Of a DNA stretch of 64,000 bases, positions 1-6,135 are shown one piece after another. The notes beneath the pieces are model-generated. The model was not told the origin of the DNA and did no database searches. It was given only the letters and a program-made list of their open reading frames with translations. How positions within the stretch are numbered: position 1 is the first letter of the stretch; the number at the start of each line of letters is the position of its first letter. A program made the position numbers and the translations under genes. The stretch is taken from the NCBI RefSeq assembly GCF_002846555.1, contig NZ_PJMS01000001.1, positions 4,092,001 to 4,156,000 of the forward strand. Reading direction: 5' to 3'. This stretch comes from Aquimarina sp. MAR_2010_214. GTDB lineage: Bacteria > Bacteroidota > Bacteroidia > Flavobacteriales > Flavobacteriaceae.

Positions 1-291
1 AATTTTAAGCAGTTGGCTAGTTATGTTGGTTTGATTCCATCTGTTCACCAGAGTGGTGATAGTTTGACTACTTCTGGCCTTACTCCCAGAGCAAACAGAA
101 TTATGAGAAGTTACCTGGTAGAGGCTACTTGGGTTGCTTTACGGTTTGATCCTGTGATGCAAGCATATTACCGATCTCATAAGGGAAAAGATGTGAAAAG
201 GATTTTAGTAAAGGTGGCCAGAAAATTACTGAGCCGTATTCATGCTATTATCAGAACAGAAACCCCCTATCAGATAGGAGTGGTAAGTTGA
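1..291 (+). mobile_element. IS110-family transposase, C-terminal end (5' truncated by window edge)
   Basis: The frame is open from base 1 (NFKQLASYVGLIPSVHQSG...) to a TGA at 289-291, so only the last ~96 residues of a longer gene are visible. The segment matches the C-terminal Transposase_20 domain of IS110/IS1111-family recombinases. It has the GLIPS...SG turn, the G-x-TPRANRIMRSYLVEA block and a basic helix ending KVARKLLSRIHAI. The N-terminal DEDD catalytic domain lies left of the window, so completeness cannot be judged. These enzymes move by a bridge-RNA-guided mechanism, and some IS1111 members insert specifically into integron attC sites. That is notable because an attC-like array begins about 300 bp downstream. 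Confidence 0.85.
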
Positions 292-628
292 AAAAAATAA
301 AAAATATAAGCCTAAAAACTCGACAATACTTTTGGCACAAAAAAGGACAACTAAACAACGTGGGTGAAGCTTTAAACCGTTATCACATTTTATAGCAAGT
401 TGCCTTGTTTGCCAATCATAATCATAGTGATGCTGGTGGATGATTTTGTATCATACCACATATAGGATGCGGAGTTATAATGGGCTATTGTTGAAGTATT
501 GACAACGCTTTAATGGCGTTGCCAACAATCCAACAATCTAAAATCATTAGAATGAGATAATTAAAATAATAAAATATTGTATTTTTAACCTAAGACTTGG
601 GAAAGGGCTTTACATAGGACACGTTGTT
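292..628. other. Non-coding segment between IS110 end and first cassette
   Basis: No convincing gene. It should contain the right end of the IS110 element and what remains of the attC-like site after the first cassette. AACAACGTG at 354-362 is the exact reverse complement of CACGTTGTT at 620-628. A hairpin CAACGC/GCGTTG lies at 503-521. GTTGCCAACA at 518-527 repeats the cassette boundary sequence found at 1418-1427. A bridge RNA of the IS could also lie here, but no precise boundary is visible. Confidence 0.4.
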
Positions 629-634
629 CTACGC
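354..634 (-). repeat. Possible degenerate attC-like site after cassette 1
   Basis: Read on the minus strand, it starts with GCGTAGAAC (634-626), immediately after the end of cassette 1. CACGTTGTT (620-628) pairs with AACAACGTG (354-362), and weaker pairing continues inward. At about 280 bp it is long for an attC, so it may be expanded or rearranged by the neighbouring IS110 element. The boundary assignment is an inference. Confidence 0.3.
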
Positions 635-1270
635 AGTTTTTATTCTTTTCAAATTGTTCATCTGTTGTTCAAATCCTTGAAATTTATTATTTATGTCTTG
701 TGTATGATTACCAGAAGTCCATTCTTTATACAATCCTAAATAATTATTCATTTCGTTCGTTCCGTTTATTTGGTCAGTCCATTTTAGAGCCAACATTGCT
801 CCACTTTGGTCATAATGCAAGTCTTTTCTTGTCAAATAGTATTCAAGATATTTTTTCAGATATTCAATTCCGTTTTGAGTATTAAATTTCGCTAATGCTA
901 AACAGTACCCATTTCCTGCGTAACAAACTTGACTTTTTAAAAGGTGAATTCCAATAATATCCTCAACAGTTTTATATTCCATTATTGAAGCAAAATACGC
1001 TCCAACAATTCTAGTTCTCCAATTAAAATCTCCAAGTAGATTTTTAACAACTTCTATATTCAGTTCCGCTCTTATTGGTTCAAAGTTCCGAATGAATTCA
1101 TCTGCATTATTTATTCCGAACATATAAAATGGAACACACCACTTTTTTATAAATTCAGGTTCAATTTTATTTTCGTTCGTATAATGTTCCAACTCTGCAA
1201 ATGGACTTGCGTGTCGGATTGTTGCACCAGCAGAATGTAATTCAATTTGTTTCTTTGTTTTTTCGTCCAT
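629..1270 (-). CDS. Cassette 1: conserved hypothetical protein (DUF6000-like)
   Basis: 213 residues from the ATG at 1270. The frame stays open to a TTG at 1285 next to the cassette boundary, but ATG is the more likely start. It is a soluble, mostly helical protein with no signal peptide or membrane segment. The LLGDFNWRTRIVGAYFAS block and the YLEYYLTRKDLHYDQSGAM block recall the uncharacterised DUF6000 family; I know of no function for it. The gene is the only one in its unit, and GTTCTACGCA (626-635) overlaps its stop codon while the exact complement TGCGTAGAAC (1288-1297) sits just upstream of its start. This self-paired boundary is what marks it as an integron-type cassette. Confidence 0.7.
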   Translation of the reverse strand: MDEKTKKQIELHSAGATIRHASPFAELEHYTNENKIEPEFIKKWCVPFYMFGINNADEFIRNFEPIRAELNIEVVKNLLGDFNWRTRIVGAYFASIMEYKTVEDIIGIHLLKSQVCYAGNGYCLALAKFNTQNGIEYLKKYLEYYLTRKDLHYDQSGAMLALKWTDQINGTNEMNNYLGLYKEWTSGNHTQDINNKFQGFEQQMNNLKRIKTA

Positions 1271-1287
1271 TGTTGGTTTGTTCAAAT

Positions 1288-1426
1288 TGCGTAGAACGTT
1301 TGTGTATATGGTTTGTTGCGTGTTTCAAGCAACTAATTTAGTAAATAATTACCGACCAAGAAAGTCCGCGAGGACTTTCGCAAGTAGGCGAGAAGCCAGC
1401 AATAAATTATATACGGTGTTGCCAAC
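1288..1426 (-). repeat. attC-like site between cassettes 2 and 1
   Basis: Imperfect hairpin of about 139 bp with no gene. Read on the minus strand it begins with GTTGGCAAC (1426-1418) and ends with GTTCTACGCA (1297-1288). Inner arms pair (GTATAT 1304-1309 with ATATAC 1409-1414; TTGC 1316-1319 with GCAA 1399-1402). A perfect central hairpin GAAAGTCC-GCGA-GGACTTTC lies at 1360-1379. Long, imperfect and strand-folded symmetry with conserved GTT/AAC ends is the hallmark of attC recombination sites. Confidence 0.6.
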
Positions 1427-1439
1427 AGTGCTTTTGTTT

Positions 1440-2081
1440 TCAGGCAATTCCTCCAGAAAAGTATTCCGTTATTTTCCACTTTCCATTTACTTTTTTGATT
1501 TCAATATTATTGTCCCAAGCACAACCATCTCCACAAATAAAGTCAAAATGTAAATAACCTTTCGTGAAATTTCTATTAAAAACTATTCTTGAAATGAATA
1601 AATAACCAAATTCATTTTTTTTAGTATCAAAGTTTTCTAATGCTTCAATCTTTTCTTTTTTTATTAATTCAATATTTAAATTTTCATTCTTAAAGGAATA
1701 ATTCAAATTCCGAGTTTTAATTTTTCCATTTTTTAAGTCGATGAAAATTTTTTTCTCAAATTCATATTGTTTTAAATCTTCCTCAAATTTATTTTTGTTT
1801 CTTTCAATTCTTTCTTTTGAATAATCAATTCCATTCGCACCAATGTCATATCCAGTTGGTTTTATTGTCCAAGCTGTTGTTGTGTCTAATTTTGATAAGA
1901 TATAAAGTTTAAGTTTTTTATTTCCATATTCATTCAGTTCTTTCATTTCCTCAAATTGTGTCATTTCAAGAATTATATCATTAATGGCTTCGTTTTCCAT
2001 TTTAATATATTTCTCGCTTTCATAATTCTGACAACTTGAAAAGGAAAATATTATTAAGACTATTATTATAAATCTATTCAC
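1440..2081 (-). CDS. Cassette 2: small lipoprotein of unknown function
   Basis: The frame is open from 2177, but its first 32 codons only translate the attC-like hairpin. The GTG at 2081 gives a proper SPII signal (VNRFIIIVLIIFSFSSC), so I place the start there, giving 213 residues. After the lipobox Cys the protein is Lys/Glu-rich and helical (about residues 25-150). It ends in a beta-rich part, YLHFDFICGDGCAWDNNIEI...VNGKWKITEYFSGG, which resembles the small beta domains of Bacteroidota envelope proteins. No family was recognised. The unit is bounded by GTTGCCAACA (1418-1427) and TGTTGGCAAC (2105-2114), an inverted pair. Localisation is inferred as periplasmic or outer-membrane lipoprotein. 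Confidence 0.65.
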   Translation of the reverse strand: MNRFIIIVLIIFSFSSCQNYESEKYIKMENEAINDIILEMTQFEEMKELNEYGNKKLKLYILSKLDTTTAWTIKPTGYDIGANGIDYSKERIERNKNKFEEDLKQYEFEKKIFIDLKNGKIKTRNLNYSFKNENLNIELIKKEKIEALENFDTKKNEFGYLFISRIVFNRNFTKGYLHFDFICGDGCAWDNNIEIKKVNGKWKITEYFSGGIA

Positions 2082-2105
2082 TTTCGGTAGTTTCGGTTTT
2101 GCATT

Positions 2106-2175
2106 GTTGGCAACGTTTCTTGTATGGTGCGTTTGCATCCCGAAGGGTGCATATGTATTATACAAATTGTTAGGC
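2106..2175 (-). repeat. attC-like site between cassettes 3 and 2
   Basis: Read on the minus strand it begins with GCCTAAC (2175-2169), which fits the attC R'' consensus RYYYAAC. It ends with GTTGCCAAC (2114-2106). Inner arms TTGTAT/ATACAA and a GGGTGCA/TGCATCC-type stem around a GAA loop (2137-2150) give a 70-bp imperfect hairpin, within the size range of known attC sites. It separates two genes that have nothing in common. Confidence 0.65.
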
Positions 2176-2195
2176 ACAGGCTTCTATATATTGTT

Positions 2196-4472
2196 TTAAT
2201 AACTCAAAATTTTCTCTACACTACCGTTTTCATAGTATTTAATTGATTTGCCTTTTAATTTATTTTTTTCATAATTCCACTCATATTTCTTTTTACCACT
2301 TTTATAATATTCAATGGTTATACCTTCTAATTTCCCTTTTATATAATTCCATTCATATTTCTTTTTACCATTTAAAAAATAACCAATAGAAATTCCATTT
2401 CTCTTTCCTTCTTGATATTTGTAATCATTTTTTTTCTCTCCGATGATGTAATAAGTAGCTCCGCTAATTAAGACATTATCTTTATATTCCCAAGTAGCTC
2501 TTTTTTCTCCAGTTTTATAGAATCTTGTAGCCGTTCCATTTCTTTTTCCATTTTCAATATTAAACTCTTCATGCAAAATACCATCTTTTAAATATGTTTT
2601 TGATTCTATTAGTTTACCATTTAAATAATTCTTGACAGCATATTTTCCATCTTTGTAATATTTTTTTGAAATTCCATTTAATTTATTGTTCTTATAATTC
2701 CATTCTGCTTTTAAATCTCCATTTTCATAAAATTCTTTTGTAATACCATTACGTTTATTCTCAGAAGTTTTCTTTTTATTCAAATATTTAACTATGTATT
2801 TATTTTTCTTTTTAGTAAGTGAAACTTTATAACTATCTCCATCATGTCTTAAATCTAAAAGAAATCCACCATCAGTTGTTTCAATTTTGGTTATTTTATC
2901 ATAAATGTTTGCATTACTTCCAGATTGAAAAAAATCAGCCTCTTTAAATTGGTTGGTTATTTTAGAATATAAATCATCTTTTATCACATCTATAAAAGTA
3001 TAAGAATCTTTTTTTGTGTTTTTAATTAAGATGGGAGAATACGTAATTTGATAACAGAATTCCATACCAGCATTAGGTTTAAAAACTTTTAAATAGTCGT
3101 TAGATTCTGCTTTGAAAAACTCTAAAGTACTACCTTGAGGAGCTTGTTTATCTAGTTTTTCCATTTTGTATACATTTTTACCTGCAATCAGATATTCATC
3201 ATCATCATATACTATTTTCACGTATTTGTATGCCTTACATGTTTCATCGTATTTCTCACCATTAAAGTCTCTAAGCGATTTCCCAAGAATTTTAACGTAG
3301 ATTCCAGATTCAACACTTTTTATTGGTCTAAGGTTTTTATCTAAAAGTTTTAAATTATCACCTAATAAAACAGCAACACCATCTTCATTTTCAAAATATA
3401 ATTCCATTTTTTTATCTAATGGAGATTTTTTAGGTTCTTTAGGAATACGCTCTTTTTCATTTTCATTATATGTGATTTCAAACTTTTTGGAAAAATATTT
3501 CGGCATATATAAATATGCATTAATTAAATTCCCTGATGAAGTAAAAACTCTATATTCTTTCCCAAAGATATTTTCTTGAGTTTCTTTCTTCTTTTTAGCG
3601 TTTTCAATCATTTCTATAAATTTAGAATGAAATGCTTTTTTATAATCCTCAAATGATAAGTTTGGGTTTTCTTTAAACTTTAAGTAAACGTCTTTAAAAA
3701 GTGTTTGCGAACTAAACATAACTCCTGATGAAATAATACGTTGCCTTTTTTTATTTAAATTGACTAAAGTCAATCCCAAATCTTCAATGTTAGTTTTGAA
3801 ATCTAATATCAATGAATTATCTAAAACATCTATAACAGTAAAGTCATAATTACCAATTTTCATTTCTTTACCAATATCTGATTTTTTGATTTTTAAATAA
3901 TCATAACCTTTGATAAATCCACTTTCAAATTCTATTGTTCCCTTAAACCCCTCTGTTTTTATTTTAGTTTTAATATCAAAAGAGGTACTAATGGTTCTCC
4001 AATTATGGGAGTAAGCATTTCCGTTTTCAAAGCCTGAGGAAGAGTGAAATCCAAACCCAGAATTACCACTTTCTTGAATCTTTAAGATTGTACTATCATC
4101 TGCAATTTTATTCGTTTTAATTGATAACTTAAAAATACTTATTAGGTCGTCACTTATAAATTCTGGGAAATATGAATTGAATTCTAAAATGTGATTTGAA
4201 AAGCTTCCTTTCTTAATTTTAATGGTAGCATTTTTTATTAAAGTGTCTAGAGCCTTTTTTGATTGTGCTTCAGTGTATAGTTTTGTATTCCAAGGCAGTT
4301 TATAATCTTTATCTATTTTTGAATTATGCTCTTGTTTTTTAAATACTTCAGAAGTAAAAGCGTAGGTGAGTTTTTCTGCAAATTCAAGCTCTTTTAGTTT
4401 AATAGAATCTTTTTCTTGACTATAAGATAACGATGAAATAATTAAAAAGAATATTACAATTTTGGTTTTCAT
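2196..4472 (-). CDS. Cassette 3: secreted MORN_2-repeat protein
   Basis: 758 residues with an N-terminal SPI signal (MKTKIVIFFLIISSLSYSQ). Residues ~20-570 form a large region with no recognised domain. Residues 575-758 carry about eight MORN_2-type repeats of roughly 22 residues (for example NGITKEFYENGDLKAEW and GKLEGITIEYYKSGKKKYEW), as in YwqK-like proteins. Such repeats fold as a beta-sheet ribbon and act in binding; no enzymatic motif is visible. The gene is unusually long for a cassette. Its unit is bounded by GTTAGGCACA (2169-2178) and the exact complement TGTGCCTAAC (4497-4506), matching GTTRRRY and RYYYAAC. It is the cassette nearest the integrase. Confidence 0.75.
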   Translation of the reverse strand: MKTKIVIFFLIISSLSYSQEKDSIKLKELEFAEKLTYAFTSEVFKKQEHNSKIDKDYKLPWNTKLYTEAQSKKALDTLIKNATIKIKKGSFSNHILEFNSYFPEFISDDLISIFKLSIKTNKIADDSTILKIQESGNSGFGFHSSSGFENGNAYSHNWRTISTSFDIKTKIKTEGFKGTIEFESGFIKGYDYLKIKKSDIGKEMKIGNYDFTVIDVLDNSLILDFKTNIEDLGLTLVNLNKKRQRIISSGVMFSSQTLFKDVYLKFKENPNLSFEDYKKAFHSKFIEMIENAKKKKETQENIFGKEYRVFTSSGNLINAYLYMPKYFSKKFEITYNENEKERIPKEPKKSPLDKKMELYFENEDGVAVLLGDNLKLLDKNLRPIKSVESGIYVKILGKSLRDFNGEKYDETCKAYKYVKIVYDDDEYLIAGKNVYKMEKLDKQAPQGSTLEFFKAESNDYLKVFKPNAGMEFCYQITYSPILIKNTKKDSYTFIDVIKDDLYSKITNQFKEADFFQSGSNANIYDKITKIETTDGGFLLDLRHDGDSYKVSLTKKKNKYIVKYLNKKKTSENKRNGITKEFYENGDLKAEWNYKNNKLNGISKKYYKDGKYAVKNYLNGKLIESKTYLKDGILHEEFNIENGKRNGTATRFYKTGEKRATWEYKDNVLISGATYYIIGEKKNDYKYQEGKRNGISIGYFLNGKKKYEWNYIKGKLEGITIEYYKSGKKKYEWNYEKNKLKGKSIKYYENGSVEKILSY

Positions 4473-4496
4473 GTTTTTTAACTAATATTTTTTGCT

Positions 4497-4531
4497 TGTG
4501 CCTAACAATGTTGTAATAGCAATTGCTATTA
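4497..4531 (-). repeat. First cassette boundary (R' GTTAGGC) and 18-bp palindrome, attI candidate
   Basis: The R' sequence of cassette 3 (minus-strand GTTAGGCACA, 4506-4497) lies 40 bp beyond the integrase stop codon. Between them is a perfect 18-bp palindrome, TAATAGCAATTGCTATTA (4514-4531). By position this is where a primary attachment site would be if the array grows next to the integrase. It could also be a terminator-like hairpin for the integrase gene. Confidence 0.4.
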
Positions 4532-4546
4532 TATTCCATGTATTTA

Positions 4547-5674
4547 TTACAAATCTAGTGGATTTTTAATTGATTTGAAATTGTTTATTGCCACTTGAGT
4601 ATAAATTTCTGTTGTTTTTGTACTACCATGTCCTAGCAGCGTTTGAATATACCTTAAGTCAGTACCATTCTCTAAAAGATGAGTAGCAAAACTATGTCTT
4701 AACATATGCGGAGTTACTCTCCTGTTTATCTTTGATTTTTCTGCTGCCTTAACTACTATTTCTTTTACACTACTTCCACTATATTTAGTTCCTTTTAATC
4801 CTTCAAACAGGTATTTTTTTGGTTTCCATTCTTTATAATATACTCTTAATTCTTTTAAAACGGTTTTTGATAACAATGAATATCGGTCTTTATTATTTTT
4901 TGCATTTTTGATATGAATTAGCATCCGCTTACTATCTATATCTTGAATTTTTAATTCCAATAGTTCACTTCTACGTAATCCAGCAGAATATAATAGACTT
5001 ACAATACAACGGTGTTTTATGTTGTTGGTATTGGCAATCATAGCGAGAATTTCCTCTTTGGAAAGTACTTGAGGGAGTTTTTGTTCTTTTCTAGGTCTTT
5101 CAATACTATAAAATCGATTAGGCATTCCCATCACTACTTCGTAATAAAACTTAATGCTATTGATCGTTTGATTAATATAACTATTAGATTTTTTTTGACG
5201 AATAAGTAATTGCAAATATGCTCTTATCTCCTGCTCTGATAATTCCACAATATCCTTATCGGGATACTGATTTATGAACTTCTCAAATAACGAGATGTAT
5301 ATTTTACAGGTGTTTAGGGCATATCTTTTAAGTTCTAATTTTAGAAGATATGCTTCTGGTACATATCTATATGAAGCTGCTTTAGCTCTATTACGATACC
5401 AGTTAACATCGACAGGCTCATTATCTCGTATAACTTTCTCTTTAAAGAAAGAATTTCCGTTAATCCAAGCGACACCTCTAAATTTCTCAAAAACATGATT
5501 CAAGTTTTCTTTGGTATTTATGATATATACCATAGCAAACTCTCTGCTCCATTTAGGATTGGGGAGTTCTTTTATCAATGCCTGGATTACCTTATCAGGA
5601 TGAAACTGTAATCCAATCATCTTTTGGTTACCAATCAGCAAATGCTTTAAGGTGATATGTTTGGTGAGGTTCAT
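4547..5674 (-). CDS. Tyrosine recombinase (XerC/D-like integrase) next to cassette array
   Basis: 375 residues. An N-terminal extension (~1-100) is followed by a SAM-like core-binding domain (~103-185) and the catalytic domain (~200-370). All catalytic residues are present: R234 (GLRRSE), K259, H323 and R326 (HMLRHSF), H349 (LLGHG) and nucleophile Y358 (TTEIYTQ). It lacks the ~16-20-residue insert before the HxxR motif that defines integron IntI, so by sequence it is a Xer-type enzyme. It nevertheless abuts an array of units with attC-like sites, all transcribed in the same direction as itself. It is therefore the obvious candidate for moving them, but this is inferred from position only. A divergent zinc-ribbon gene lies 92 bp upstream. 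Confidence 0.9.
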   Translation of the reverse strand: MNLTKHITLKHLLIGNQKMIGLQFHPDKVIQALIKELPNPKWSREFAMVYIINTKENLNHVFEKFRGVAWINGNSFFKEKVIRDNEPVDVNWYRNRAKAASYRYVPEAYLLKLELKRYALNTCKIYISLFEKFINQYPDKDIVELSEQEIRAYLQLLIRQKKSNSYINQTINSIKFYYEVVMGMPNRFYSIERPRKEQKLPQVLSKEEILAMIANTNNIKHRCIVSLLYSAGLRRSELLELKIQDIDSKRMLIHIKNAKNNKDRYSLLSKTVLKELRVYYKEWKPKKYLFEGLKGTKYSGSSVKEIVVKAAEKSKINRRVTPHMLRHSFATHLLENGTDLRYIQTLLGHGSTKTTEIYTQVAINNFKSIKNPLDL

Positions 5675-5766: not shown

Positions 5767-6135
5767 ATGAATATATGTCCACATTGCAAAGCTGAAATTA
5801 TGGGTAGATCCGATAAGAAATATTGTTCTATCCATTGTAAATCTGCTCATCAATATCAAAAACGTAAATCAGAAGAAGCCTTATATTACACTATTGACAA
5901 AAAGTTAAAAACCAATCGTAAACTCTTAAAAGCGTATAATAAATCTGGGATGTCTACTATACGTAAAGAAAAGCTACTATCTGAGGGGTTTGACCCTACT
6001 TATTTTACGCATTACTGGAAAAACAAAAAAGGACAGATCTATTTGTTTTGTTATGAATATGGATTTCTGGATCTAAAGGAAAACCAGAAAGAAAAGTATC
6101 TTTTGGTAAGGTGGCAGGATTATATGAACAGTTAG
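5767..6135 (+). CDS. Small zinc-ribbon protein divergent from integrase
   Basis: 122 residues. The N-terminus MNICPHCKAEIMGRSDKKYCSIHC has a CxxC...CxxxC arrangement (Cys4, Cys7, Cys20, Cys24) typical of a small Zn ribbon. A basic helical segment follows (KRKSEEALYYTIDKKLKTNRKLLKAYN), then a C-terminal block (GFDPTYFTHYWKNKKGQIYLFCYEYGFLDL) common to small uncharacterised Bacteroidota proteins. I know of no assigned function. It is divergent from the integrase across a shared regulatory block, so a role as directionality factor or repressor is conceivable but unproven. Confidence 0.7.
   Translation: MNICPHCKAEIMGRSDKKYCSIHCKSAHQYQKRKSEEALYYTIDKKLKTNRKLLKAYNKSGMSTIRKEKLLSEGFDPTYFTHYWKNKKGQIYLFCYEYGFLDLKENQKEKYLLVRWQDYMNS

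Follow-up and report, generated by a model that had tools for sequence, protein, structure and literature searches.

The tyrosine recombinase gene in the stretch of Aquimarina DNA analysed here (64,000 nucleotides, C1:4092001-4156000, hereafter the window, in a host genome of one 5.98-Mb contig) is part of what we judge, at a probability of about 0.86 and from sequence comparison, to be an integron-like cassette platform of Bacteroidota whose recombinase lies outside IntI. The preliminary description had proposed an integron-like cassette array beside this recombinase, and our analyses confirmed the proposal and found the array to be larger than had been noted. The arrays would appear to work like an integron although they do not belong with IntI, and the recombination itself is what we infer from their structure. 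They are not filed here as IntI integrons because they were tested for the IntI-specific domain and for the classical R-box consensus, and neither was found to characterise them.

The Array in the Window

The features of the locus are collected in Table 1. All three inverted pairs of the preliminary description were recovered with exact coordinates. On the minus strand, along which recombinase and cassettes are read, a unit opens with GTT plus seven bases and closes with the complement of these ten bases. The cassettes had also been said to point the same way as the recombinase, and all three ORFs do lie on one strand with it. The cassette 2 protein looks lipoprotein-like by eye and is without a Pfam match; its true start is probably within the listed frame.

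Table 1. Features of the array locus. Positions are those of the window unless preceded by C1, the host contig.
Feature	Position	Strand	Description
Inverted pair 1	626-635 / 1288-1297		GTTCTACGCA / TGCGTAGAAC; 10 bp
Inverted pair 2	1418-1427 / 2105-2114		GTTGCCAACA / TGTTGGCAAC; 10 bp
Inverted pair 3	2169-2178 / 4497-4506		GTTAGGCACA / TGTGCCTAAC; 10 bp
attC-like joint 3, R'' side	1..635	(-)	IS110-family element inserted 4 nt after AAC
Cassette 3	626..1297	(-)	R' GTTCTACGCA, R'' TGCGTAGAAC; DUF6000 protein, ORF 629-1285
attC-like joint 2	1288..1427	(-)	core 120 nt; row 1 of alignment A4
Cassette 2	1418..2114	(-)	R' GTTGCCAACA, R'' TGTTGGCAAC; ORF listed as 1440-2177
attC-like joint 1	2105..2178	(-)	core 54 nt
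Cassette 1	2169..4506	(-)	R' GTTAGGCACA, R'' TGTGCCTAAC; 758-aa protein with MORN repeats, ORF 2196-4472
attI-like site	4504..4546	(-)	18-bp palindrome TAATAGCAATTGCTATTA (4514-4531), then CAACATT, joint GTT
Tyrosine recombinase	4547..5674	(-)	375 aa; catalytic R-K-H-R-H-Y present; without IntI insert
Divergent partner gene	5767..6135	(+)	122 aa; cysteine pairs zinc-ribbon-like (by eye)
Near-full IS110 copies in host	C1:2012716-2014159, 4074083-4075525, 4091181-4092624, 4922048-4923489		third copy is the one at window 1-621

Four consecutive linked units were counted downstream of the window recombinase, against a maximum of one in 20 shuffles. The fourth link is probably a product of chance and falls within the IS110 copy in joint 3, so three units are counted at this locus. 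That copy occupies window positions 1-621 (edge set by eye), its remainder lying to the left of the window, and the array extends leftward beyond it, with further units there read by eye. Among the matches listed for a model of one joint class (R1, below), same-strand ones extend from C1:4060409 to 4093427. Inside the array there is also a second IS110-type transposase (466 aa, judged by look), at L011 8712-10112. The DUF6000 gene was present in 8 of 66 genus genomes, and a search of seven relatives gave one more pair-bounded copy of its cassette, at L194 (9-bp pair).

Anatomy of Units and Joints

Unit anatomy was examined in 24 loci picked as arrays, which yielded 109 units and 83 joints (two loci gave none at the score used), and some of the unit links in this sample must be due to chance. 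R' consists of GTT and seven freely varying bases, the first of which is A or G in 100/109 units, and base 11 counted from the R' start is A in 106/109. The match between R' and R'' is 10 in 65 units, 9 in 32, 8 in 10, and 12 and 13 once each. Inside any one array the R' boxes are all different, and 89 of the 109 are distinct overall. The reading of the inverted pairs as R' and R'' of one cassette is upheld.

The joints carry AACA at one edge in 81/83 and CGTT at the other in 76/83, and their cores fall into the length classes 52-55, 115-120, 154-159 and 173-186 in 74 cases, with nine outside. Like attC, they combine AAC...GTT edges with an imperfect inverted repeat. For the pairing test, 30 joints of a second sample (selected for AACA and CGTT) were added, giving 111 joints after removal of duplicates and extreme lengths. 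The classical R boxes RYYYAAC and GTTRRRY occur in only 11 and 12 of these, respectively. In 95 of 111 joints, the R'' and R' that the joint contains pair over just three to five bases; full pairing is therefore confined to the two ends of a single unit. A joint's own arms paired at an average of -19.2 kcal/mol, arms swapped between joints at -8.3 (20 rounds, sd 0.23); own arms beat at least 90% of 30 swaps in 101/111 joints. Single-site fold z-scores were modest, from -1.2 to -9.3 (16 sites, both strands, plain shuffles). An alignment of 19 joints from the 115-120 class shows compensatory changes at 7 of its 13 consensus pairs, one pair reading A-U in 9, G-C in 6 and C-G in 4. The preliminary description had named a lack of folding above shuffled controls as an outcome that would speak against an array; the joints fold better than such controls and their arms pair specifically.

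In 105/109 units the longest ORF points along the array; in three it points the other way, and one unit has none. This ORF mostly starts some 10-40 nt past R' and stops some 10-20 nt before the end of R''. The cassettes stand in tandem, mostly with a single gene, and point in one direction. Their content varies between relatives: 108 cassette proteins formed 106 families (E 1e-5), hardly ever common to two of the 24 arrays. The other adverse outcome named in the preliminary description, the same three genes in one order as ordinary neighbours in many genera, was not encountered in the comparisons made here, which covered the 24 arrays and, for the DUF6000 gene, the 66 genus genomes.

The attI-like Joint and Sister Platforms

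The array starts at an attI-like joint 40 bp beyond the recombinase stop. A second copy of the recombinase, 98% identical, lies at C1:4913394, and between the two host platforms likeness is 95.6% across 1298 bp, up to the upstream end of the compared stretch. The platforms diverge one letter after ACATTGTT, both having A there by chance. The first unit of the second platform is a restriction-modification pair (DNA methylase and MvaI/BcnI-type endonuclease), followed by other units; its unit-bounding pairs measure 8-10 bp, and two linked units are counted there under the strict 9-bp rule. A cassette-borne cytosine methylase of 735 aa with an N-terminal arm DNA-binding domain (PF17293) was observed at L012 9744-11951, and an MvaI/BcnI-type endonuclease comes after it.

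If cassettes are inserted at a single point behind the recombinase, the likeness of sister platforms should end at GTT. Seven pairs of sister platforms were compared in the genus. Likeness stops right at GTT in one of them, L149/L151, and a single letter past it in four (L140/L141, L152/L153, L011/L139 and L143/L145); in L154/L155, where the opening ten bases of the first units are almost identical, it continues about 12 bp past the joint, and in L149/L150 it stops about 9 bp before the joint. An attI joined at G^TT is seen as layout only, with likeness ending at or next to GTT in 5/7 pairs. Further downstream, what the sister pairs have in common is mainly joints between otherwise different cassettes (about 60 or 145-190 bp, most rows ending in CGTT), together with a few shorter or other matches.

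Linked Units Across Loci

To count units at a larger number of loci, we chained those linked by 9-bp pairs across joints of 40-260 bp, with a composition filter and with the other flank as control. This procedure replaced chaining by loose 8-mers, which was dropped since shuffled sequence gave equally long chains. A duplex-based chain finder was also dropped; it missed short joints and could not distinguish the strands, because an attC-like joint reads identically on both. Eighty-five loci with at least 2.5 kb downstream were scored, with 20 shuffles each. Three or more linked units were found downstream at 26/85 loci and upstream at 1/85, the sole upstream-positive locus (L087) being IntI-type, where a classical array is expected on that side. 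The upstream control was missing for L011 and under 2 kb for about a dozen other loci, hardly any of them positive. Shuffled sequences never gave more than two linked units in a row.

Positive loci are marked by the length of the recombinase N-terminus. Length served as the measure after a regular expression written for the N-terminal module had failed to pick up clear members (L139, L157, L161, L025 and L145). Ahead of the conserved core, each of the 26 positive loci has at least 79 aa. None of the 34 loci with fewer than 60 aa was positive, and 25 of the 51 with 60 or more residues fell short of three linked units under the strict 9-bp rule. The test says little about classical integrons, since it looks downstream only and requires 9 bp; the finding that 34/34 loci of non-Bacteroidota relatives (at least 2.5 kb) have fewer than three linked downstream units is to be read with classical integrons outside its reach. 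Twenty unselected loci were taken from the phylum search for contig room and not for their flanks. Of the 18 with enough sequence, eight had three or more units and 13 had a first unit at the attI-like place; an attI-linked first unit was found in 2/34 non-Bacteroidota relatives, using a slightly narrower search range.

GTT-anchored 10-mers were counted at 44 loci (24 picked as arrays and 20 not). Such 10-mers had an inverted partner at 168 of 4840 starts downstream, compared with 58 of 6873 in the reversed sequence, 19/3971 upstream and 19/4440 on the upstream reverse strand. The expectation that the same type of recombinase would stand beside variable arrays with like boundaries was borne out in many Bacteroidota.

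Alternatively, the joints might be intergenic palindromic repeats of the ordinary kind, lying between resident genes next to an unrelated recombinase. Such repeats are common, and R1 joints also occur away from the recombinase. We nevertheless consider this explanation highly improbable, as each unit carries a complementary pair of ends of its own, the edges of the repeats are the point at which sister platforms part, and the cassette proteins are almost never common to two arrays. In addition, three or more linked units occur only downstream of N-terminally extended recombinases, bar the one IntI-type locus with upstream units.

The recombinase itself was found in 47/66 genus genomes (E <= 1e-100) and in 84/395 Bacteroidota genomes representing 53/171 genera (E <= 1e-60), which does not imply an array for all of them, and 67 plasmid records of PLSDB hold a relative at <60% identity. 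The partner gene adjoins 50 of 53 recombinase copies in the genus (paired by eye) and also lies beside relatives labelled Flavobacteriaceae, Hymenobacteraceae, Saprospiraceae and Bacteroidales.

Relation of the Recombinase to IntI

The nearest named relatives of the window recombinase are from Aquimarina and other Flavobacteriaceae. Its best NCBIfam match is NF040815 (XerA / integron integrase), at 220.1 bits for a cut-off of 220, and the solved structures nearest to its structure model (mean pLDDT 82, pTM 0.49) are the XerA-like 4a8e and 5hxy, then IntI4 2a3v. The label Xer-type in the preliminary description holds to the extent that the enzyme is XerA-like and without the IntI insert, but it is closer to XerA and IntI than to XerC/XerD and carries an additional N-terminal module (about residues 1-77).

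The absence of the IntI insert had been noted earlier and is substantiated here, with 41-42 residues missing versus IntI. The interval from position 264 to 323 comprises 58-59 residues in array recombinases (63 in L033) and 56-69 in XerA/C/D-like relatives (81 in L096), versus exactly 100 in ten homologues taken as IntI, which were assigned by that very length and of whose genomes the IntI profile confirmed four. The host enzyme lacks the IntI-specific additional domain (I2): the IntI profile matches it in two pieces, 9-178 and 242-313, skipping positions 179-241, and the gap versus 2a3v falls at the same place. A search with this profile over 10 genomes, four with a known IntI-type gene, gave matches over cut-off in 4/4 control genomes and in 0/6 Bacteroidota genomes, with none in the complete host chromosome. 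An IntI search of the genus at E <= 1e-40 (57 genomes) was discarded, as it gave no match anywhere, controls included.

A tree of 93 sequences splits array and IntI rows cleanly (59 unlabelled rows are not counted). With the insert region omitted, the IntI rows and L096 form one branch (100/99) and the array rows fall outside it, L049 adjoining the IntI branch (91/81), 13 others forming a branch (99/97) and L039, L041 and L046 a second one. The array recombinases are not members of the IntI clade, and forcing 11 array and 10 IntI rows into one clade gave a p-AU of 0.028. Tree and insert length agree in placing the recombinase outside the classical IntI family, as had been suggested. On these comparisons the array recombinase is outside IntI, and we claim neither an independent origin nor a single clade of array recombinases; the former is withheld because a joint array and IntI clade is rejected only at p 0.028.

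A classical IntI acting in trans, or since lost, could instead have built the arrays as CALIN, making the neighbouring recombinase a bystander. These joints do share AAC...GTT edges with classical attC, and the IntI-type locus L087 has three linked upstream units by the same test. We regard this history as very unlikely given that no IntI over cut-off was found in the six Bacteroidota genomes when all four controls were positive, that the order recombinase-attI-array recurs across many genera, and that so few of the 111 R boxes (11 and 12) match RYYYAAC and GTTRRRY.

Comparison with Known Systems

Features shared with classical integrons are the recombinase gene with an adjoining attI, the one-direction tandem of single-gene cassettes, the attC with AAC...GTT edges and an imperfect stem, and a cassette-borne R'/R''. 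The Aquimarina system differs in that its enzyme has no IntI insert, lies outside the IntI group and is extended at the N-terminus, its R box is about 10 bp and free after GTT, and its recombinase gene is transcribed toward the array. XerA and NF040815 provide the best NCBIfam match and the best solved structures, but not the N-terminal module or the cassette array. In the XerC/D (pdif) modules of Acinetobacter, single genes lie between Xer-type sites. There is no fixed dif-like site at every boundary here, the fixed letters being mainly AACA and CGTT; the ends are cassette-specific and the recombinase gene stands beside the array. Chromosomal integrons of Treponema are described in PMC3607928 as having intI transcribed toward attI and in the cassette direction. 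The recombinase gene reading toward attI and along the cassettes is shared with them, yet theirs are intI genes, whereas the enzyme here is without the IntI-specific domain and most R boxes are off consensus.

A Proposed Model for Cassette Capture

In the mechanism that we propose, a single strand of the free cassette would fold so that its own R' pairs with R'' and the joint arms form the stem. The recombinase would then cut between G and TT and join the cassette at attI, leaving the newest unit next to the recombinase, and excision would be the reverse. The folded strand is placed in the free cassette because bases that are free to vary stay complementary at the two ends of a unit. Such complementarity of free bases several hundred bp apart would be hard to explain without single-strand folding.

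Exchange between double-stranded joints, as in XerCD-dif modules, would make folding irrelevant. It fits an enzyme that resembles XerA (4a8e, 5hxy) and has no I2, as well as an attI-like site that is itself palindromic. The seven bases after GTT differ among all units of an array, however, so the partners would lack homologous overlap; moreover, double-strand exchange would not be expected to keep the ends of a unit complementary, and the stems covary. For these reasons we think it improbable, and folding of the free cassette strand is our preferred mechanism.

HARP and XPB domains have a fold used for recognising forked, damaged or distorted DNA. Potentially, the N-terminal module takes over part of the job of the I2 helix, the recognition of a folded site, although this step is less certain than the others. 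The wider proposal of a second integron lineage in Bacteroidota, in which a HARP/XPB-like N-terminal module reads the folded sites in place of the I2 helix, is tentative and we lean somewhat against it. If true, capture of a folded single strand would have arisen before I2 or in its absence, with the free R box of 10 bp as an ancestral or alternative way of recognition. PMC7790495 treats I2 as necessary for cassette capture, which counts against our reading, as the enzyme here has none. It presents the acquisition of I2 as having created single-strand cassette recombination, the authors noting that intermediates are missing. A natural cassette recombinase without I2 would make that view directly testable.

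Cassette collecting may exist in a second form, possibly overlooked by standard integron searches. According to PMC9668308 and PMC9024848, IntegronFinder recognises an element through the IntI-specific domain and an attC model, and the latter source reports that with it Bacteroidetes yielded nothing but In0 elements at first and, later, a single complete integron from Salinibacter. As only 11-12 of the 111 joints fit the classical R-box consensus, standard detectors are predicted to miss probably most of them. No description of such arrays was found in full-text searches of the literature, which covered no bioRxiv preprints and few subscription papers. Should the arrays be active, a large part of the gene-cassette pool in Bacteroidota has so far gone unnoticed.

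Stray Joints and Other Observations

Model R1 represents one joint class, with 150 candidates scored per genome. It found at least 36 sites in the host genome (E <= 0.1, rough), located in both arrays and in several other places, and at least 28 and 11 sites in G012 and G030, respectively, both without a recombinase match at E 1e-100. None of the scored candidates in G408 was a site, though its recombinase locus L176 has four linked units, which is why R1 is taken to cover one joint class. Outside both host platforms, attC-like joints were observed at C1:984429, 2014145-2018190, 2859486-2863262 and 5523777-5530582, among others. The stray joints of the host, G012 and G030 are possibly cassette clusters without an adjoining recombinase. 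Decayed recombinase fragments with 61-64% identity and internal stops lie at C1:5866773-5866942 (L013), and one attC-like site lies nearby at C1:5861970-5862105.

For all four near-full IS110-family copies found in the host, the insertion point is an attC-like joint, 4 nt past the AAC of its R''. This placement resembles that of the attC-targeting IS1111 group.

Array-type recombinases of 675-718 aa with long extra stretches occur at L047, L049 and L051, and L049 has five linked units downstream of its gene. N-terminal extensions of 82-105 aa were seen at L044, L048 and L052, in MAGs labelled Undinarchaeales, Firmicutes and Spirochaetota, on contigs that end early. The host also has clusters of more tyrosine recombinases (frames of ~300-330 aa) at C1:1868004-1887612, 3134357-3141646, 5142600-5172183 and 5771077-5786786, some with identical scores, as if they were copies.
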